Shown here: one piece after another, positions 36,544 to 47,211 of the stretch
Numbering within the stretch: the first letter of the stretch is position 1
Layout: each line of letters opens with the position of its first letter
From: Dacryopinax spathularia
Taxonomy: Eukaryota > Basidiomycota > Dacrymycetes > Dacrymycetales > Dacrymycetaceae
Assembly (NCBI GenBank): GCA_037974965.1
Contig: JBBPFI010000008.1
Span: 868,001 to 932,000, forward strand
Length of the DNA: 64,000 nucleotides
Direction of reading: 5' to 3'
Made by a program: the position numbers and the translations under genes
Notes under the pieces: model-generated
What the model was told of the DNA's origin: nothing
The model's database searches: none
The model's input: only the letters and a program-made list of their open reading frames with translations

Positions 36544-36551
36544 GAAAGTGG
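36544..36551. repeat. Left target-site duplication (GAAAGTGG)
   Basis: GAAAGTGG precedes the left end of the element and is repeated directly after its right end at 47204-47211. An 8-bp duplication is what I would expect for KDZ/Zisupton-group elements. Confidence 0.85.
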
Positions 36552-36557
36552 GGGAGC

Positions 36558-36583
36558 TGACAGGATAGGGGCGAGAACGGCCA
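36558..36583 (+). repeat. Left terminal inverted repeat (26 bp)
   Basis: Begins TGACAGGATAGGGG and ends GAACGGCCA. It is the exact reverse complement of 47172-47197. Immediately inside, CGGCCAGAA and TTCTGGCCG form a 9-bp-arm hairpin. Confidence 0.95.
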
Positions 36584-36870
36584 GAATATAATCCCGTTCT
36601 GGCCGACGGAGGTAAATTTTTAGATTAGATCCCGTATATAGTAATTTAATTCCGTTTTAATCCCGTTTGCTTCCGCACCGGATTCGCGGGAAACCAAAGG
36701 TACCGCCGGTACCGCAGGTACCGCGTGTACCGCACGTGTAAGAAGCACGGAACCGCATGTTTTGCGCTTCCGTACTTCTGTTCTCTCTGCGCGCTGCGCC
36801 TCCTTTATCTCGTCTCCTCTCTCCTCGTTACCACCACTAGCTTAGCCCTCAACGTCGTCAACTGTCAACA

Positions 36871-38619
36871 ATGCCCGGCCCTACCAACCCCAATCGCCGC
36901 ACCACTCGCAGTACCGCGCGAACCGCGGATACCGCGCCTACCGCGCCTAGCGGGACTGCGACGGCCCCAGAGCGCACTCCGTCGCAGCTGATCGCGGAGG
37001 CCGAGTACGCCGACCTCCGCAAGCAGATGAGGGACAACTTCGACGGCCTGGAGGCGGATGCTGGCTCGGATCAGCTTGGAACCTACAGGGTAAGCGCTAT
37101 CTTTCTACCTCCATAATATCTACTAACGTTTGAATAGTCTTTTGCGGTCTCAGCGGCTCGTATTGCGCCGCACAGGGTGGGGGAGTGGGCGGAGAGGGAG
37201 GCAAAGCTGCTCGGCCCTAACTTGCAGGCTGTCTGGCTGTTTCAGCAATCGGTGCGCCCATTGCGGTATCCGCGGTACCTGCGGTACCGGCGGTACAGGC
37301 GGTATCTATCTTACTAACTCTTACACTCAGGAGGAGGTGAAGGCCAACTTCAAAAGCGCCAACATCCCTGTGGGCTCCGCCATTGGGCTCGACATCTCCG
37401 CCCTCGAGATCGGCAAGATGGCGAAGGCCCCCAAGGCCACCACCACCACCACCCTCCCCACCGCCCCAGCCACCCCAGCGACCACCGCAGGGGGGAGGAC
37501 GCCCGCTCAGACGGATGTTCCTCTCCCCGCCGACACGTCTGACGTTCCGGAGGGCCGTCCCCGCCGCGGTGCTGCTCTGGCAGCTCGTGACAAGACTGCC
37601 GCCATGCTCGGCGGTAGTCGCGGTACACGCGGTACCGGCGGTACCAGCGGTACCACCGGTACGGGCAAGGGCAAGGGCAAGGGCAAGGCTGCCCCTGAAT
37701 CCTCCTCCGACTCGGGCGACGATCGCACCCAGGACAAGAGCTACGAGCCGCCCGTGCGATCTGGCAAGGAGAAGAAGGGGAAGGGGAAGGAAGCGGGAGA
37801 AGAAGGAGGAGAAGAAGGAGAAGAAGATGAGGATGAGGCGCAGGAGGTGAAGAAGAAGGCGCGTACGACGGCGCCCGTTACCCCCAGCCGTGGGCACAAG
37901 CGGGGAGTGCCCAGCGAGGACAATGGTGCGATTCGCGCCATGGGAGGGCCGTACGACGTAAGTGCGGTTTCCGCGGTTTACGCGGTATCTGCGGTAGCTA
38001 CGGTACTGATACTCTGACTTAGGACTTGATTGAGGATGGTGTCCTCCGCCCGACCCAGAAGCTTGCAGGGCGTAACAAGGACCCAGCAAGCGTTCCCATT
38101 CCGCCCCCAGACCAGCGCCGCCTCTTTCCCACGAGGGTAAGCATTGTTATCATTGAATTACTAATATTTAAACTAACTACTACCTCTCTAGTGCACTCAC
38201 TGTATCCAAAAGGGTACTTACTGCTTTCGTGCACCGGGTGCACTGAGCAAGGCGTGCTGGACGTGCCGTTGCTTGGGCAAGACCTGCGATGTGGCCCAGA
38301 AAGGTGAGCGGTATCTGCGGTAGTCGCGGTATCCGCGGTACTAACATGTTTCTTAGATGGGCGTGCAGGGCGGTGGATTCCGCCCGAAAAGAGGACAAGG
38401 GTTACTCCCTCGTCCTCTCGTAGTACCGGTCATGTGCAGGACATGCTGGACAGGGCGGAGCGGGAGCTGGAGCGGATGGAGCAGCTGCCGGAGGAGGAGG
38501 AGCAGCAGAAGGAGACGGAGCAGGAGGAGGAGGAGGAGGAGTGGAAAGGACTGGCAAGTGACGGGCCGGAGACGGAGGATGGCCACAGCACGAGCACGCT
38601 GACCTCGCTCGAGGGGTGA
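36871..38619 (+). CDS. Transposon-borne six-cysteine-cluster protein (left, plus strand)
   Basis: Six exons (36871-37089, 37138-37251, 37331-37957, 38023-38136, 38192-38303, 38357-38619) give 482 residues in one frame. The N-terminus is rich in TA/RT, coded by the 9-bp repeat. Then come a helical part (QLIAEAEYADLRKQMRDNF), a Thr/Pro linker, a second repeat-coded stretch (GGSRGTRGTGGTSGTT) and a Lys/Glu-rich region. Next is the cluster CTHCIQKGTYC...ACWTCRCLGKTC with spacing C-x2-C-x6-C-x10-C-x2-C-x6-C, then an acidic coiled coil. The spacing resembles but does not equal fungal Zn2Cys6 factors; DNA binding is an inference. Introns 2, 3 and 5 hold the repeat arrays. The CDS could continue past 38619 through another intron. 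Confidence 0.75.
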
Positions 38620-40693
38620 GCGGTAAGTGCGGTAGTGGCGGTAGCGGCGGTAGAGGCGCAACGGGGGCCAGAGGGGCGGAAGTTAGAAATGCCCTGGTGT
38701 TTGTGTAGGAGTAGGTCGGGTGCAGTAATGCCATGTGTTTAGCCCGGAATCCCCCCTCTTTTTAGTTGGCAAAGCGTGCGAGCCAGGCGTATAACACGTG
38801 GGGCGGTTTGTGCGGTAACTGCGGTAACTGCGGTAGATCCATGCGTGATTTGCTTAAGTCCTTTCCATGGTATGATACCGACGATACCGCGCGTACCGTG
38901 GATACCGCGGAAACCGCTGGTACCGCAAGCAGTTGTTCTTCCAGCCTCACCTGTCAACAGGGTGTGCTTGTAGTTCAAGAGCACTCCTTCCATTGCTTTT
39001 GCAATGTGTTGGCCATGGTGGATTCAATGACATGCTACAGCTGATATTTTCCTGTTGAAGGGTCATGATGAACATCTGTTCCTGTTAGAGACTGGAGGCC
39101 CATTGGTCTTCTTCATTTGCATATATGCAGTTTGCCAGACATTCTCTTGTGAGTAGGGTATGATGAACATCTGTTCCTGTTAGAGAGCAGATGTCTGTTA
39201 GCCTGTGCATGCAGGTCTTCTTCATGAGCATATATCCTATTTGGACAATGTAGATCAAGCAAGCAACCGGTTCGGTATCTGTCTGCCTAAATGACACTCA
39301 TCTCTCTATCCATCTTCATGCATGAAGATGGACATTGGCATGGTTGGATGGACTTGGGAGGCAGAGGGCAGAACTGGAAGTGCTGCCCTATCATCTGGTC
39401 CATCTGAGAGGGGCAGGCAGTAAGGTGCAGTGCGGTATAGGCAAGGATGAACACACACAGGTAATCAGGCTAGGTGGGTGCCGACAGTTGGTACAAGATG
39501 TTGCAGCAGCAATGGCCACTGGCCAGGCTCCCACTGCAGGACAACATTCAGAGAGTACCTTTGGGTGCATACTGGAATATTATAGTGACTGGCACACCTC
39601 CCTCACCAATGAAGCCATGGAATGGTAGTGAGATCTGGTGCAGCCTTAGAGCACGCCACTTGAAGTTCAAGTCCAATGCTTCCCAGCTCCCTAACTCCCT
39701 GGTGATTGAAGCAGCGAAGGGTCGATTGCTGTAACAGAACTTGTGGGAGTAGTTGGTACGGGGCTCAGCCTGTGCTGAGGCCCAAAAGATACTTTGAGGA
39801 CGTCGTAAGGGTCAGCCAAATGCAGGCCTTTGCTGCCTTCGGTCCCTATAGGCATCCACGGGTCCGGAAATACAAGTTCAAACAGGGTGCAATCCCCACT
39901 CAGGGGCAGTGGCAGACGCGGGTTGTCAGGTGGGCCTCAGCTGCTCCTGGGAGGAGAAGTAAGCAAAATATCCTGCAGCTCAGACAAGCTAGCTCACCGG
40001 CGATTGAAGCAGCGAAGGGTCAATAGCTGTCACAGAGCTCCCTGGCAACACTGGCCATGAGGTGGGGGATATGGTGTGAGCTGCACCGTGACATTCAATT
40101 TTGTGCTGTGTCTTTTCCCTTAGCATGATCCCAATTGATGTACCAGTGTGTGTTGTCTGTCTAAGTAACATGCTCTTCACTGTCAATTTCATTTTGTTCT
40201 CTGTTACTTTGCACGTGGCATGGATTATGCGCTCAGTCTCGCATTGGGGCTTCATCTGATCTGGGGCTGCCTCTTCTTGCTGTGCAACCTTGTTTGAAAC
40301 AAAGTACATAAGTACATTTTGCAAATAACCACTTCTCCTTTGCTGGTTTGGGCCCATCCTCACCTGGTGATCGGCCTGGCCAGATGAGAACCATCGAGGA
40401 TATGTGGCAGGTGGGTGTGCACAGTGTCAGTTGTCAAAATGCATGGTGCCCAGCATACTGGAGGCCCAGGCTGGACGTCCATGCGGTATCTGGGCCATCT
40501 GCGGTAGAAGGGTTACGGCTGTCCAGGGGCGAGTCGGCCGTCCAGGTACCGCAGATACCGACGGTACCGCCGGTACCGCTTGTACCGCTTGTACCTGAGC
40601 TACCCATGATGGGACATGGAGCATATAACTACTCAGACTACGTTACCGAATACCACATTACAATGATCATCAGGTATTACATGGCAGTCCCAA
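38620..40693. other. Transposon interior without a supportable gene
   Basis: About 2 kb. It holds GCGGTANNN tracts (38624-38657, 38806-38932, 40480-40592) and two pairs of direct repeats. One repeat pair includes ATGAACATCTGTTCCTGTTA at about 39066 and 39161, followed in each copy by TCTTCTTCAT and GCATATAT. The other includes GATTGAAGCAGCGAAGGGTC at about 39703 and 39999. Open frames here lack splice or domain support. It may be untranslated or regulatory DNA, or decayed nested elements. Confidence 0.5.
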
Positions 40694-41355
40694 TCATGGC
40701 CGCTGGCTCTGCATCCCACTCGTGGCCTCGAGCACACGTTGCAGAGTGCGGTTGGCTCTCTCTTGCGCGTGTGCCGCCTGTTTGAGTTCCTCCATAGTCT
40801 CTGAGAGCAGGGCCGCTGGGACAGATTGAGTACCGCCGGTACCGCACCTACCACAACTACCGCACGTACCTAGCTGGGCCTGCATCACATTGCTAGAGAC
40901 TCCGGTAGATACCTCCAAATCCGGCAGAGGGTGTTGAGGTGCTCGCCGAATCACACGGCCACGGCGTGCGTCTCCAATCCATCAGTCGAGTGGGGTATGC
41001 ATGCAAGAGTGGAAATACCGTTTGTGGGCCCGGCTGAACACTGTTTCTGCGCCCTTTGGCAGTGCCAACACGCTTTGAAGCGCTTACCTGGCTGCCGAAA
41101 GCATTCCAATCCACGCCTCATGCAGTATGAACACTGGAAGGCAAAACAGTGAGTGTGATGTCTGCGTGACACAGCGCAATACCCTACAGGAGTGGCCATC
41201 GGTATCCGTCGGCCCACATCAGGCTCAGAGCCTCTGAAGCGCGGTAGAGCGGTAGCTGCGGTACCAGCGGTAGACGCGGTACCGGCGGTAGTTGTTCCCG
41301 TGCTGGTTGCTGTATTGATGGGTTGGTTTCGGGAGTAACCAGCGTTACGAGGCAT
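40694..41355 (-). CDS. Transposon-borne six-cysteine-cluster protein (minus strand)
   Basis: Three exons (41355-41019, 40941-40870, 40815-40694) splice in frame to 176 residues. It starts MPRNAGYSRNQPINTA, followed by a repeat-coded Thr/Ala/Gly stretch. The cluster is CSYCMRRGLEC then ACWHCQRAQKQC, with exactly the spacing of the left gene (C-x2-C-x6-C-x10-C-x2-C-x6-C). The C-terminus is a helix (LLSETMEELKQAAHAQERAN) that may form a coiled coil, again parallel to the left gene. Intron 2 (40816-40869) is made almost wholly of the 9-bp repeat array. The two genes are probably ancient duplicates within the element, possibly DNA-binding helpers of the transposase; that role is inferred. Confidence 0.7.
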
Positions 41356-41736
41356 TTCTTTTGGTTTTTCTGAACAAATGCCGGGAATCACTGCTGAGCA
41401 AAGGGCTTAAGGATGAGAGGCTAGAGAGGAGTCACAGCGCCAGTGGAATACCTGAGAAGATGGTGGTTGGCGGTAAAGGGTTAAGCTGGATTCCAGTCAT
41501 CGGTCCGGTGGCTTTGATCAGGGTCCAAGGGGCGGTTGGGCGGTTGTCCAGATCCGCTGAACCGCAGATACCGCGGCTACCGCCGGTACCGCAGGTACCG
41601 CAACTTCCAATCGTACTTTGTGAGGTGCGCTGCTCACCTACCGCGGCTACCGTAGATACCGCATCCATCTAGGCGAGAAAACTGGGCATTTCTATCTACC
41701 GCCCGCAACAAAGTGTTCTGTCTACGCGCGCCCGCA

Positions 41737-43892
41737 TCATACCTCCTTCTTGGATACCTTCCCGGCGTCCTCAACCTCTGCTATGAACTGAACCCAGCGC
41801 CGATGGCCCCAACGAGATGTCCACTCATGCAGTAAAGTCAAGGGCGCATGCTTCCAGTTCCTGTAGTGACGGCGTAGCGTACGCTCAGGAATCTTTCTGC
41901 CAGGGAAGGCGATGCGTTGGGCTTCCCCTACCAGAGTGCCACTGCGGCGAAGGGCGTGGTACCGCTCCATTTCACGATTGACATCGCTAAAGGAGCAGCC
42001 CCTGGGCCACGTTGCTCCTTTGTTGCGCTCTGACTCTTCAAACGCAAGGGGTGAAATCACCAAAGGCTCATCATCCGAGCTGTCAGAGATCACAAGGAGA
42101 TTGAGCATTGAGGGAGATCGAGCCTTCTTGGTGGGTGTCTCTGGCAGGTGGAGGGATTGCTGACTGGTGGAGCGAGGTCGCTTAGCCCTGGGGACACATT
42201 GTTGCACAGAAAACAGTTGGAGCTCCTCCTAAACATGCTCATCATCGAGAGGGAGAGCGGTAGGGCTGATGACGATGTGCTCCTCCTTGAACAGGGAAAT
42301 GACCTGGCCGGGACCAATCTCCACCCATCGTTCTTTCTTCTTGTCCAGCACAGGGACAGTCCAGGCATGGGAGGATGTATCCACACCACAGGTTTGCGAA
42401 ATGCGCCCCAGGACCGAAGGGAGCCAGTGTTCCATCATCGTAAACATGGAGGGGGGGCGGCCGCGTGCTTGCAGATTGGGTAGCTCGACCGGTTGGCAGT
42501 TCTGGAAAGGAAGGTGATCAGAAACATGCAATTCGCTTGTGGGCGGTATCTGCGGTAGCGGCGGTAGCGGCGGTAGCTTGTTTTTCCGTGAGGTCAACAT
42601 GGTACCGCAGATACCGCGTGTACCGCCAATACCGCTGTTGAAAACAACACTCACTGCTTGGAGGATGACTATTGTGAACAATCGGGACGCTTGGTCCTGC
42701 TCTCCCGCTCGCTGTATGGCCTCCACTGGGCTTCCGGAGGGCAGGCCTCCCCCGGATAATCTCTCCCCCCAGGATGGGTGTAAGGCTTTGCCAACATACT
42801 GGGGAGTGACATTTCCAGCCAGTGTAGGGCGGCGGTATCGAGCAGAGGAGGGTCCAAGGGGCGCTCCTTCACCACCAGCATTACTGAAGGAGGATGAATC
42901 AGGAGCGCCTCCACTGTTCTTTCCCTTCACTGTTTACCGGTGAGCAATGCACGCTCCAATACACGCGGAGGCACTGTCTCACCTGAGTGTCCTGGGGCTG
43001 GGCAAAGACGACCCATAGTACCGCAGGTACCGCGCCTACCGCAGGTACCGCAGAAACCCCCTTCATCGACTTCAGGGTTGTTGCACCCAGTGGTCTTCTG
43101 GTGGGCAATGCAGCAAGCCTTGCACATGTTGCGAGTACACTTGGTGTGCGGTGGGCGGGTCCTGCACTGGCTGCACTTGCCTGGTGACGCCACAGCTGGG
43201 ATGCCACTGGAAATCAAGTGAGGCAAGGGGCCCCAGTGGATTCCACGAGGTACGCCATTATGCCAGTCTTGCACAGGCTGCTGGGAACCCACAGAACGAT
43301 CAGGAGTGTCTTGAACATCCACAGAACCGTCGTAGATGTTCTGGAACACCTCCTTCTGCAGCTCAGGCATCTGCTGGGACACCCAGACAAACACATGGCC
43401 CCAGTAGCACTGCATGGTGCGGATCAGCGCCCCTGCCACCCCAGCCTACTATCCCTGGCGCACCTTAGTGAATAGACATCCCCAATGGCCTGCAGTAAAT
43501 GCCACAGTGACAGGCATGCAGCGGCGCCCACACTTCTCACAGTACCAGTTCTCCACATCCTCCACAGCACAATTCATCAGCTCTCGATGCTCCTTCCAGT
43601 ACTGGAGGATGCCCTCTCTTTGGAGGTCCTTGAGTGCAGACATTGAGAACACTGTGTAAGTTGATGGCACCGAGAAGGACTTGGAATTCGTTGGAAGCCA
43701 CGGAAAACCGCCGGCGGTTAATTGGAACCGCCTTACATAAGGCCGCCACGCGAGGGCCCTAGCCAGATTGGTGGAGGTGGGCGGCGGTATCTGCGGTACC
43801 CGCGGTATCTGCGGTACCCGCGGTATCTGCGGTACCCGCGGTATCTGCGGTACCCGCGGTATCTGCGGTACCCGCGGTATCTGCGGTACCAT
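41737..43892 (-). CDS. Transposon-borne Cys-rich protein(s), structure uncertain
   Basis: A run of minus-strand exons between the transposase and the small cluster gene. The first possible ATG (43892) enters the 18-bp array, read as VPQIPR repeats. It is followed by SMSALKDLQREGILQYWKEH, a CEKCGRRC motif and, across a short intron near 43450, RTMQCYWGHVFVWVSQQMPE. A cysteine cluster, KCSQCRTRPPHTKCTRNMCK then ACC, lies near 43130. An exon ending 42655 (VILQA) joins in phase to one starting 42501 (NCQPVELPNLQ) across an intron filled with repeats. The last part, 42190-41737, ends WGHRRWVQFIAEVEDAG. It could be one gene of roughly 600 residues or two. I do not recognise the domains; a zinc-binding role is suggested by the cysteines only. 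Confidence 0.5.
42543..42617. repeat. Hairpin repeat in an intron of the Cys-rich gene
   Basis: GCGGTATCTGCGGTA at 42543-42557 is the exact reverse complement of 42603-42617. The spacer contains GGTCAACATGG. Both arms lie inside the intron 42502-42654. Confidence 0.85.
43784..43890. repeat. 18-bp tandem array, six copies
   Basis: Unit GCGGTATCTGCGGTACCC (two 9-bp units), five full copies and one of 17 bp, with no base differences. A reverse-oriented tract at 43921-43951 pairs with its first part with about two mismatches in 32, across a spacer containing CATGTTGACTT. Perfect identity implies recent expansion. Confidence 0.95.
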
Positions 43893-43997
43893 GTTGACTT
43901 CTCGGAATTTGGTTCAGCAACCGCAGGTACCGCGTGTACCGCAGATACCGCCGCAAACGGAAAGCGTGGGGACATTGGTCATTATTACAGAATAGTA

Positions 43998-46381
43998 CTA
44001 CTGCCTTTGTAGAACCTCTGCGGGAACCCTGTGGGGGTTCATACCTCTTTGGAGGAGCTGTCTCTCTACAAACCGGTTTCTTTCCTTTACCATCTCATCC
44101 AAAAAGAACTCAGCACACACAGCATCAAGTTCTCTGACCATGGGATGGTAACCATTAATCCAGGCGTTCACCATCTCCGCTGCAGAAGAGTTGAAGTGCC
44201 ACTTGTGCTTCTCAGCATCATAGATGTCTGGGAAGAGTAAAGGGTTGCAATGTTGACCACAGTAGAGATCGCCTTCGCTATGCTTGGCTTTGAAGTGGAA
44301 CACATCGACTGGTTGACCCATCCCTTCGAAATGGGCGTCTCCAAGAGCTTGCAGATGTCGTCGTAGTTGACAATTGTTGTCATAGAAGAGGATGTCAGGA
44401 ACCGATCCTTTGGTGGGGAAGACCGCACGTAACATATCCTGGAAGGTGGTCTATGAGTATTCGTAGACACCTGCTTCAACGACATACCGCTACTGAGGAA
44501 ATCGCCTCGGCACCATAGAAAGTGGCCCTAGCCACAATGATACCACAAGGACGGACAATCAACTGCTCATTGTGCGTCCAAGCGCGAGTGAACTGAGCCT
44601 TTTGTGGTCGTTTCCCCCCGGAAATTCTAGAATCGACCTGGAGTAGGTGCGACAACGACTCGAAGCCTTCCGGAAGGGCAAGGAGGGGAGTGGTGGAGCT
44701 GGGTACGGTACTTGCGGTAGGGGCAGTAGGCGCGGTAGAAGCGGTAGTGGCGGTAGTGGCGTTGTTCTGCTGTTGGACCTCCAGCTGTCTGGACCCATTG
44801 AGAGCCAGTCGTCGAGCGAGCTGAAACATGGATTTTGCCTGCTCATCGTGGGCATCTTCCATAGCCTTATGCGATGAGTCTTTGCATGTCAAAGCGCCTG
44901 TGCGGACTGTTTGAGTGCACCCCTCAACTGCACACACTTGATTAAGTTCTTGATGCATGGGGCAGAAGCGGGATGATATGGGTGACAGTTCCCCATGGCA
45001 GTTGTGCACAGCACAGCAGGGATGACTAATGGCTACACCATCGGTGATAGCTGCATGAATGGTGTCTGTATTGCAAAGGTCAGTGCAATACTGTGGGGAG
45101 GCGGGCAGAACAAGCTAACAATGGGTGCCACCTCGCTCAACCACACGCAGGCAGCCGTCACAGGCATGAGCATAAAGCTCCTGACCAGTGCCAGCCATGA
45201 AAGCATTCCTCACTCGTAAGGCTTCCTTGAGTCTTGCCCTTTGCACGCCTGCTGGGTTGCCATGTTCAGGGTGCTCCAGAAGGACGAGGATACTGCCCTG
45301 CTCATCATGATGCTGGAGCAAGGCATCGAGGTAGAAGCAGTCCCAAATGTATTGGAGACGGAGGCTGGGAGGATGACAAGTGCCAATATCGGAGCGGTAA
45401 GACAGAGATTCCATATAGATACGCTCCAGTGCTTGTCCACTGGTACTACGGAGGAAGTTAGCTTTGTCTATCGGGTTCGAGGCAGACAGAATGTAGAGGC
45501 GGTACCTGCGGTATACGCGGTATGCGCGGTACACCGAAAAAACCCAACGTGGTTCCGCAGGTACCGCGGATACCGCGGCTACCGCGTATACCGCAGGTAC
45601 CGCATGGGCTATGACGATGGACTTACTGAGCATGCAACATTTGACGCTTGAAGTGAAAGGCCAGTTCGCGGTCAATTAGAACGTGCTTCTCAACCTGGAC
45701 AATGGCCGGCCGTCCAAGGTAGTAGTAACGCCGTTGAACACCGTCAGAATCCATTCTGCGGACATAGTTGAGGAAATATGTTGAATGACAGCCTATGACA
45801 CATTCAGGGCTTGGTTCAGAGGGACTGGTATGGTACATACGCTTGCATCGGAGGCAGGTGATAAAGACAGGCAGCACACCCTGGTGCAATGTGTAAAGGT
45901 GGGCGGCAAAGCGGCGTGCATCAACGAGTCGTCCAGGTGTTGGGCAGTCTTCTTGTGTGCAGACGCGAGTAGGGGGGAACAACTCTTCAACACCTGCAAG
46001 GTGTCAGCAATGGGCGATTAATTTAGACAGACAGTTACCCATGTCGACTTGGGGAGCAGTGGCAATAAGAAGTTGGACAGGGTTGAGCAGAGAAGGTGTC
46101 TGCTGATGTCCCACTGGACCGGTTTGCCACACGAGAGGAAATAGTGCCCCCCAGAGAAGCTGGACGTCCGGGATTGCAATGTGGAAAAGCGTGGATAAGC
46201 TTGCAGAGAGTGCAGGAGGGAGAACTCTTGGTGGGGAGTCCTCAGGCAGGGAAGCGAGCCATGTAAGTAGTGGTTGCCAGTGACGAATGACAGAAAGAAG
46301 GTTGAGAGCTATGTGGGCGGGAAGATGACCAAGGCGTGACAGATGAGGCCACAATGAGTGAACAAGCTGATGAAGATTCAT
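43998..46381 (-). CDS. KDZ transposase with CxC5/CxC6-like cysteine clusters
   Basis: Five exons (46381-46039, 45993-45627, 45445-45145, 45090-44488, 44450-43998) splice to 688 residues without a stop. Order: an N-terminal helical part; a CxC5-like cluster (FPPTRVCTQEDC, GVLPVFITCLRCKRMYH, RRYYYLGRPAIVQVEKHVL); SGQALERIYMES; HACDGC; then a CxC6-like part (HPCCAVHNCHGELSP, CAVEGCTQTVRTGALTCKDS). The RNase H-fold region follows: WTHNEQLIVRPCGIIVARAT, LFYDNNCQLRRHL, VDVFHFKAKHSEGDLYCGQH, WHFNSSAAEMVNAWINGYHP and EFFLDEMVKERNRF. These strings match the KDZ transposase family as I know it. Exon 4 contains a repeat-coded Thr/Ala stretch. Intron 2 (45446-45626) holds a long hairpin. It probably catalyses movement of the element in the nucleus. 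Confidence 0.9.
45499..45603. repeat. 24-bp perfect inverted repeat inside transposase intron 2
   Basis: 45499-45522 (GCGGTACCTGCGGTATACGC then GGTA) is the exact reverse complement of 45580-45603, with a 57-nt loop that itself begins and ends with further repeat units. It lies fully inside the 181-nt intron 45446-45626. Confidence 0.9.
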
Positions 46382-46536
46382 TGGGAGAACGGAATCTGCG
46401 GTAGGTGCGGTAGGTGCGGTAGGTGCGGTAGGTGCGGTAGGCGCGGTACAACGCGGCTGTGCTGGGGGAAGCAGAAGACTAAGGAAGCCAGGTAGAGCGG
46501 AAGCAAAGCTTTTTGAATTTCACTACTTCTAATTAC

Positions 46537-46589
46537 TTCCGTCGGCCAAAAAATACCTCCGTCGGCCAAAAAAAAGTTCCGTCGGCCAA
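46537..46589. repeat. Three subterminal copies of TCCGTCGGCCAAA
   Basis: Copies begin near 46538, 46558 and 46577. The middle one, extended to CCTCCGTCGGCCA (46556-46568), occurs in reverse orientation near the left end at 36600-36612. Placement near both ends suggests transposase-binding sites. Confidence 0.65.
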
Positions 46590-46660
46590 ACGGTGCAGTA
46601 CATCCAGGTTCCGTGCAGGTTCGTCCGGCGTGCCGGACGTCCGGCCGGAACCAAAAAAGG

Positions 46661-47035
46661 AAGCATTTGCTTCCATCTTCGTCAGCATGGAAGCATCTCG
46701 CTTCTATGCTGACAAATATGGAAGCAAATGCTTTACTAATCGATTTTCTGAACTTAGGGTTTTTGCGGCTGTGCGCGTGCACAGCCGCAAAAGCCATTTG
46801 TTTTAATTCGTTTTTTACTCGTTCAATTTCATTCAAATTTTCAATAGAACTAATATTGGTTAGAAATTTGGTAATTAAAAAGTGTGATGTATAAATTAGA
46901 GTACCCAAGTACTAGGATTTTATTACTTTCCCTTTTCGCGTTTGCTTCCGCTTGTGGCTGCGCTTTTTGTTTGCTTCCATAGGACCCTTGGAAGCGGCTG
47001 TGCGCACAGCTGCTTTCAAGGGTCCTATGGAAGCA
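46661..47035. repeat. Cluster of long palindromes near the right end of the transposon
   Basis: Three are clear. 46661-46733 is an imperfect 73-bp palindrome with AAGCATTTGCTTCCAT at one end and its complement at the other. 46761-46792 has 14-bp perfect arms (TTTTGCGGCTGTGC) and a 4-nt loop. 46971-47035 has 25-bp arms with one mismatch around a GCTGTGCGCACAGC centre. GGAAGC/GCTTCC recurs throughout. The segment is much AT-richer than the rest of the element. Confidence 0.85.
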
Positions 47036-47171
47036 AAAAAAAAGCGCCTACCGGAAGCAGAAATGGACCCTATATTCAAACTCAGCTCGTCCGGCGCGTC
47101 TGGTGTCCGCCGGACACCGGACACGCCGGACAAAAGTTCACGTTATCTGTATGTTCTCAAACGGTGGCCGT

Positions 47172-47197
47172 TGGCCGTTCTCGCCCCTATCCTGTCA
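47172..47197 (-). repeat. Right terminal inverted repeat (26 bp)
   Basis: Exact reverse complement of 36558-36583. Six further bases (CTTCTG) separate it from the target duplication. Confidence 0.95.
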
Positions 47198-47203
47198 CTT
47201 CTG

Positions 47204-47211
47204 GAAAGTGG
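47204..47211. repeat. Right target-site duplication (GAAAGTGG)
   Basis: Second copy of the 8-bp duplication, directly following the right end of the element. Confidence 0.85.

Follow-up and report, generated by a model that had tools for sequence, protein, structure and literature searches.

The 64,000-nucleotide stretch of DNA analyzed here (the window) comes from Dacryopinax spathularia (assembly GCA_037974965.1, contig JBBPFI010000008.1, positions 868,001 to 932,000) and contains a complete transposon of 10.65 kb along which arrays of a 9-bp unit are dispersed. The element shows the hallmarks of a DNA transposon, with terminal inverted repeats and an 8-bp target site duplication (TSD), GAAAGTGG, on either side (Table 1). 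The 29.2-Mb assembly (24 contigs) was searched, and the three full-length copies are referred to as W (the window copy, C8), C4, and C10. The TSD is CCGTTGTG in C10 and CCTTCTTC/GCTTCTTC in C4; it is perfect for W and C10 and has one mismatch for C4. C4 and C10 are 98% identical, and W is 79–96% identical to both, depending on the stretch. Divergence between W and C4 is uneven (about 24–33% at ~40480–42000 and about 2–9% across the leftmost 3.5 kb), a pattern that recombination between element lineages could have produced by joining parts with different histories. Approximately 570 bp near the right end of W (46600–47150), containing palindromic stretches, are missing from C4 and C10 and may represent a nested small element.

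Gene 1 lies on the forward strand of the element, and the CxC5/CxC6 gene, the gene for a protein termed protein B, and gene 2 lie on the reverse strand. Gene 1 has 483 codons in W, including the stop, and its frame is open in all three copies; its product is a low-complexity protein with a Zn2Cys6-spaced cluster in exon 5 (CTHCIQKGTYCFRAPGALSKACWTCRCLGKTC, found with a regular expression in a genome search). We infer that the three open reading frames (ORFs) assigned to protein B form one gene. Protein B of the window combines a Cys cluster (CSQCRTRPPHTKCTRNMCKACC) with a C-terminal domain common to array-bearing sister loci. The CxC5 and CxC6 domains exceeded the Pfam cut-offs (PF18718, E 2.7e-19; PF18721, E 7.6e-24). 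Pfam describes both as associated with KDZ transposases, and an earlier note on this DNA had spoken of a KDZ element. However, no match to the KDZ transposase domain (PF18758) was found in the ORFs scanned, nor at the W locus among 52 matches in the genome, and the transposon is better described as a CxC5/CxC6 element. Those 52 matches lie at other places, several with stop codons, and form a separate element group. Pfam scans of the submitted window ORFs, which showed CxC5 and CxC6, gave no Mutator domain. TET/JBP was also considered and rejected; its four hits in the genome were below threshold, and none fell within the window.

Table 1. Coordinates of the transposon, its genes, and its arrays in the window
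Feature	Position	Strand	Remark
Left TSD GAAAGTGG	36544–36551	.	Identical 8 bp at 47204–47211
Complete transposon, ends GGGAGCTGACAGGATAGGGGCGAGAACGGCC ... GGCCGTTCTCGCCCCTATCCTGTCACTTCTG	36552–47203	.	Two full-length siblings (C4, C10) with their own TSDs
Array, 4 units	36701–36733	-	Upstream of gene 1
Gene 1	36871–38619	+	Six exons: 36871–37089, 37138–37251, 37331–37957, 38023–38136, 38192–38303, 38357–38619
Array in frame, gene 1 exon 1	36912–36949	-	
Array in gene 1 intron 2	37263–37310	+	
Array in frame, gene 1 exon 3 (GGSRGTRGTGGTSGTTGT)	37611–37662	+	
Array in gene 1 intron 3	37961–38008	+	
Array filling gene 1 intron 5	38308–38341	+	Last unit merges into branch-site-like TACTAAC
Array immediately 3' of gene 1 stop	38620–38658	+	
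Head-to-head: + array, then degenerate - array	38812–38926	.	
Intergenic array	40545–40595	-	
Array making up nearly all of a 54-bp gene 2 intron	40816–40870 (intron 40816–40869)	-	GTACGT...CAG, by eye
Gene 2 Zn2Cys6-spaced cluster CSYCMRRGLECFRQPGKRFKACWHCQRAQKQC	41032–41133	-	Paralogue of gene 1 cluster, 44–47%
Array in open frame upstream of gene 2 cluster exon	41241–41291	+	
Array separating protein B and gene 2	41549–41602	-	
Protein B gene	41737–43445	-	ORFs 43445–42927, 42933–42229, 42228–41737
Head-to-head array pair, protein B intron	42543–42635	.	
Array in frame after protein B Cys cluster	43019–43051	-	Three NNN identical in W, C4, C10
Head-to-head array pair	43784–43951	.	12-unit arm in W, 4 units in C4; seventh intron site
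Transposase-like CxC5/CxC6 gene	44007–46384	-	Conserved exon blocks and Pfam
CxC5/CxC6 exon blocks	T1 46384–46022, T2 45997–45626 (CxC5), T3 45450–45118, T4 45066–44485 (CxC6), T5 44441–44007	-	
Array in frame inside T4	44714–44761	+	T-A-X peptide repeat
Head-to-head array pair, intron after CxC5	45499–45603	.	Slot occupied by different motifs in sister loci
Array 13 bp upstream of T1	46398–46448	+	Slot common to L038, L042, L043
Right TSD GAAAGTGG	47204–47211	.	Sequence reading

The array unit, GCGGTANNN, consists of the hexamer GCGGTA and a free NNN spacer, repeated with a period of 9 bp. A two-unit pattern (GCGGTAN3GCGGTA) had 67 matches in the window, all inside 36701–46448, and none in 100 dinucleotide shuffles of the window; tandem-repeat finding (TRF) agreed. 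The matches make up 21 strict arrays of 2–12 units (12 on the forward strand and 9 on the reverse), with degenerate edges besides, and no GCGGTANNN array occurs elsewhere in the 64-kb window. In the whole genome, a three-unit pattern gave 128 matches compared to 0 for a reversed-pattern control, and 123 of them fell in the three full-length copies (46 in W, 39 in C4, and 38 in C10). The remainder comprised one match in the C1 mini-element and two in the C16 mini-element (see below), one in a host stretch (L037), and one without an assigned place. CGG(N6CGG)3 was considered as a general feature of the genome and rejected, with 296 matches compared to 183 for its reversed control among the matches listed. 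The earlier note had reported more than 20 tracts, all within the transposon, and had proposed scanning the genome for three or more units and comparing sibling copies; its observation of the arrays was confirmed. At most 2 of the 128 three-unit matches are off the element and its mini-elements, so the arrays are not equally common in ordinary host DNA, and the same figure argues against the note's suggestion of a tiny self-mobile repeat. Array sites are also mostly fixed between copies: 19 of the 21 strict W arrays overlap a strict array in both C4 and C10, and C4 and C10 have all 22 strict arrays in common, 19 with equal strict unit number.

Searching the genome with the left end of the element identified five places, corresponding to the three full copies and two gene-less derivatives, C1 and C16. 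The C1 mini-element is 775 bp (L036 4889–5663); both ends are present and its 8-bp TSD (GGCTCCGC) is perfect, and it carries three arrays and has no room for genes. The same three arrays are present in the ~635 bp read of the C16 mini-element, whose right end lies beyond the stretch read, and two of them differ between C1 and C16 by whole 9-bp units. Because gene-less derivatives keep them, the arrays are not simply by-products of introns. Inside the right end, both the full elements (window 46534–46590) and the C1 mini-element (L036 4926–4983) also have a 20-bp tandem unit (TTTGGCCGACGGAA...), which is perhaps part of the end recognized in transposition.

Retention in derivatives, which need cis sequences only, would also be expected if the arrays were bound by the transposase or a partner for end assembly and had no role in silencing. 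The TNPA sites of CACTA/Spm elements are the model for such an arrangement: CACTA/En-Spm subterminal repeats are short motifs bound by the element-encoded TNPA and are kept in defective derivatives. Consistent with this alternative, paired arrays (within 200 bp) are oriented only head-to-head (3 pairs in W, 5 in C4, and 5 in C10) with no tail-to-tail pairs, and the CxC5/CxC6 clusters could bind DNA. However, whereas the CACTA repeats are subterminal, the arrays here span the whole 10 kb, exons included, with no concentration at the ends, and three sister loci without dispersed arrays retain all five CxC5/CxC6 exon blocks. A role in transposition only is thus conceivable but not the probable explanation.

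CxC6 was identified at 28 loci in the genome, as was the transposase exon. Three of these are the window family; the other 25 are 46–54% identical in the transposase exon. The sister sample comprised 13 of the 25 (10 kb each, with element ends not determined) and 1.5 kb of a 14th (L051). Dispersed arrays of a locus' own motif were present in 10 of the 13, with an 18-bp period in L038, L043, L044, L045, and L050, a 15-bp type (12-bp units or multiples included) in L039, L046, and L049, and mixed periods in L047 and L042, which are close relatives. The assignment of arrays to L042 and to the weak loci L044 and L050 was a judgement call. Besides arrays of the 18-bp type, L042 (2076–2653 and 6804–7041) and L047 (7109–7427) contain a repeat with the core GTGTATGGATA/ATATCCATACAC and longer units. 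No dispersed arrays were found in the 10 kb read of each of L040, L041, and L048, although L048 has two adjoining 36-bp arrays; all five exon blocks are present in each of these three loci. Eight family words were compared across W, C4, C10, L038–L046, and three host stretches (L047–L050 lie outside this matrix), and the words were mostly private to their own family. Different motifs occupy common slots. In the intron following CxC5, W has a 9-bp array, L038, L042, and L043 have 18-bp arrays, L039 and L046 have arrays of the 15-bp type, and L047 and L049 also have arrays. A slot 13–35 bp upstream of T1 holds arrays in W, L038, L042, and L043, and is not visible where T1 borders the limit of the sequence read; a slot in the T4 block holds arrays in W, L044, L046, L047, L049, and L050.

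Within W, seven array sites are intronic (three gene 1 introns, a gene 2 intron, a protein B intron, and two introns of the CxC5/CxC6 gene), five fall within open coding frames, and roughly six are in untranslated regions (UTRs), promoters, or intergenic DNA. All introns are sequence-predicted; on the reverse strand, with the exception of the T2–T3 intron, placement relied on inspection by eye and on open frames. The six introns proposed in the earlier note are plausible: 37252–37330, 37958–38022, and 38304–38356 follow from the frame of gene 1, open in three copies; 40816–40869 looks like a 54-bp GT...AG intron of almost pure array and 42502–42654 lies within the protein B gene (both by eye); and 45446–45626 separates the CxC5 exon from the next conserved exon. 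In-frame units, also described in the note, occur at the five coding sites, at one of which (43019–43051) protein-level constraint may operate. Intron housing is plausible but not specific, given the arrays in coding frames, UTRs, and intergenic DNA. The same exonic and intergenic arrays argue against a spliceable insert as the essence of the repeat, as does the homologous intron after CxC5, which has no array in 6 of the 13 other loci. In introner-like elements the intron exists only where the repeat does; this identity was rejected, with the T2–T3 gap array-free in L040, L041, L044, L045, L048, and L050. Because homologous introns without arrays exist in sister loci, the intron is independent of the array.

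The intron sites could instead point to a function in RNA, as splicing enhancers or hairpins, and head-to-head pairs could fold. NNN spacers were slightly more complementary than expected at random in C4 and C10 (p about 0.02, the two not being independent) but not in W (p 0.27); this is weak, and hairpins formed by head-to-head arrays were rejected. Arrays also occur on both strands, in intergenic and exonic DNA and in the gene-less derivatives, and array-free introns are found in the same gene (gene 1 introns 37090–37137 and 38137–38191, leaving arrays in three of five) and in sister loci. An RNA-level function is thus very improbable.

Differences between C4 and C10 were distributed unevenly within the unit, affecting 30/210 spacer (NNN) positions (14.3%) compared to 3/558 hexamer positions (0.5%) and 159/9412 positions of other DNA (1.7%); gap columns, none of which fall in arrays, were omitted. 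The hexamer rate differs from that of NNN at p about 6e-15 and from that of other DNA at p 0.036. The older pair, W and C4, gave 77/210 for NNN, 14/558 for the hexamer, and 994/9163 for other DNA, with 24 NNN and 54 hexamer gap positions omitted. These data bear on the proposal that the arrays are functionless, slippage-prone repeats piling up in tolerated transposon DNA. Units are indeed gained and lost (12 compared to 4 at 43784, and the 9-bp differences between mini-elements), but neutral arrays would not hold the hexamer while their spacers change, nor should they keep most sites in all copies or persist in gene-less derivatives. A mutational by-product is accordingly unlikely.

The spacers, in turn, diverged faster than their surroundings. 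Compared only with intergenic DNA at 38940–40480 (47/1716), the NNN excess was 5.9-fold in odds (p 4e-11). Away from an array it faded to background over ~5 bp (6.3% at 1–5 bp and 2.1% at 6–10 bp), and it was less marked in degenerate-unit spacers (5/88). Private changes polarized by W showed the same bias (24/210 in NNN and 126/8919 in background), and change in coding arrays (9/48) was not lower than elsewhere (21/162). Several causes were rejected. Unit replacement by conversion would mostly alter two or three bases at random, whereas 24 of 62 triplets had changed, 19 by one base, five by two, and none by three; with mostly single-base changes, swapping of whole units is therefore unlikely. 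Identical adjacent triplets (5/46 in W, 5/39 in C4, and 3/38 in C10, compared to 6% expected) were not depleted, which argues against selection against identical neighbors, and the broad mutation spectrum spoke against cytosine deamination. The result comes from one young copy pair in one genome, where repeat assembly error is possible, though the changes are unlike copied units; in the L044 family, a sibling stretch differed at only 5/1500 bases, too few for comparison. A tentative explanation, itself rather doubtful, is that arrays are sites of locally targeted mutation, with spacers mutating several-fold faster and hexamers fixed in introns and coding sequence alike. A bound protein could protect the hexamer while leaving the spacer exposed or nicking it, which would let the element diversify its arrays and retain its tag.

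Candidate binding proteins are encoded by the elements themselves. Protein B was first detected by homology among L038, L043, L044, L045, L039, and L046, among the matches listed. When a C-terminal-domain profile derived from four loci was searched, it matched L045, L043, the window ORF 41737–42228 (E 4.3e-8), and C4 (E 1.2e-5), with no match in L036, L040, L041, L042, or 53 kb of host DNA. Among four loci fetched afterwards, protein B was present in the array-bearing L047, L049, and L050 and not in L048, which has no dispersed arrays. Protein B thus occurs in nine of ten array-bearing sister loci (L038, L039, L043–L047, L049, and L050). As judged by the C-terminal domain, all ten protein B families (W plus nine) have arrays and none of the three array-less loci has protein B (Fisher p 0.0035, or 0.011 with L042 counted as array-bearing without protein B; both values are too optimistic, the loci being related). 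TRF arrays with a period of at least 9 numbered 5–24 in protein B families, 11 in L042, 1–3 in array-less loci, and 0–12 in nine host stretches. The profile of the protein B Cys cluster agrees in L047–L050; the match in W had an E of 7.2, the W cluster having been seen by regular expression and by eye. The cluster resembles DUF702 weakly (E 0.01–0.07), and the predicted C-terminal domain of W was too poor for a fold search (predicted local distance difference test [pLDDT] 55). The window family also encodes two proteins with the Zn2Cys6 spacing C-x2-C-x6-C-x(5-14)-C-x2-C-x(5-8)-C. This spacing had six matches genome-wide, two each in W, C4, and C10, and none in unspliced frames of another 14 loci and 53 kb of host DNA. 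According to the sections available of one account, the typical targets of Zn2Cys6 proteins are paired CGG triplets in inverted, direct, or everted orientation (PMC5559640). The GCGGTANNN arrays are direct repeats of CGG, the core of GCGGTA, with six bases between.

VANDALs are Mutator-like plant elements, and their VANC protein is not known to be related to the proteins described here. As described in the available parts of two reports, the Arabidopsis pairs VANDAL21/VANC21 and VANDAL6/VANC6 use a family-variable 9-base motif, YAGTATTAY, arrayed in introns, intergenic DNA, and terminal regions, which recruits an anti-silencing protein (PMC5735166, PMC10398659). Transposon-encoded regulators, 9-base runs in the same orientation, a family-dependent motif, and fast change in repeat number are common to that system and this one; the GCGGTANNN arrays are tandem runs of a short motif from a single family, and the motif differs between related families. 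The systems differ in that the carriers here are fungal CxC5/CxC6 elements known from sequence alone, with a fixed hexamer, a free spacer, and arrays also in coding frames. No VANC homologue on a Mutator-like element was found, as judged by Pfam scans with no direct comparison to VANC. The proposed analogy is functional and not one of homology. A second relative is an insert in poMSH4 of Pleurotus ostreatus, a multicopy sequence with a CxC5/CxC6 ORF and a BC5NWY microsatellite cluster varying in number and composition between copies; in the sections available, one cluster is reported, the insert is tied to Copia elements, and element-wide arrays, family motifs, or an accessory protein are not described (PMC7641404). 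Close analogues of the repeat thus exist, contrary to the earlier note's statement that no described family behaves in this way. KDZ transposons with TET/JBP are, in the accessible text, likewise fungal elements, some of them with 8-bp TSDs (PMC12730594); the window element differs from them in having no PF18758 or TET/JBP match. A partial literature search met no earlier account of element-wide arrays in CxC5/CxC6 elements beyond the Pleurotus trace, which does not imply absence from print.

Collectively, these results suggest that the arrays are probably family-specific binding tags for element-encoded proteins, a VANDAL/VANC-like arrangement with unrelated proteins. Among the three readings offered in the earlier note, a binding array is the best supported, by element specificity, retention in derivatives, the exchange of the motif for others in sister families, and the Cys-cluster proteins, with binding itself predicted from sequence. 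Element-encoded DNA-binding proteins would recognize dense runs of GCGGTA, spaced every 9 bp, on their own copies and act on those only, and arrays would be tolerated in introns, UTRs, and permissive protein linkers. Protein B, present in almost every array-bearing locus read, is a candidate binder; in the window family, so are the two Zn2Cys6-type proteins, which would suit the CGG core. The likeliest effect would be protection from silencing and support of expression along the full element, as for VANC, with recognition of copies by the transposase a close second; sequence alone does not separate an anti-silencing from a transposition role.

Several observations weigh against binding tags of this kind. 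Some words are common to L038, L042, L043, and L044, so the 18-bp loci overlap in part, and the W and L044 words each have 2 matches per 10 kb in host L037. The array-free slots after CxC5 include those of the array-bearing L044, L045, and L050, and counts of the commonest 7-mer do not split L044 (2) and L050 (3) from L048 (2) or the low-complexity host stretches L035 (3) and L037 (4). The association of arrays with protein B rests on related loci, whose tree accounts for it with just three changes; L042 carries arrays in two slots but gave no protein B match, and in array-less L041 the Cys-cluster profile matched weakly over a short stretch of 18 positions (E 0.0014–0.0026). For the Zn2Cys6-type proteins, PF00172 (Zn_clus) remained below its cut-off (gene 2, 13.6 bits compared to 21, E 0.075; no match for the gene 1 cluster), a PDB profile search with the Zn2Cys6-type cluster gave 0 matches, and the predicted structure of the cluster was poor (pLDDT 63). 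Finally, selection on binding sites does not explain why NNN diverges more than other DNA.

As probable binding tags, the arrays suggest that fungal DNA transposons evolved, independently of Arabidopsis VANDAL elements, the same strategy of marking themselves at many places with a tag of their own and encoding their own proteins. With tags and proteins private to each family, cross-reaction between related families that share a nucleus need not occur. This genome contains eleven array-bearing lineages whose slots are shared but whose motifs differ, a natural experiment on the joint change of protein and site, and the hyperdivergence of the spacers presents a separate, measurable puzzle concerning mutation beside bound DNA.

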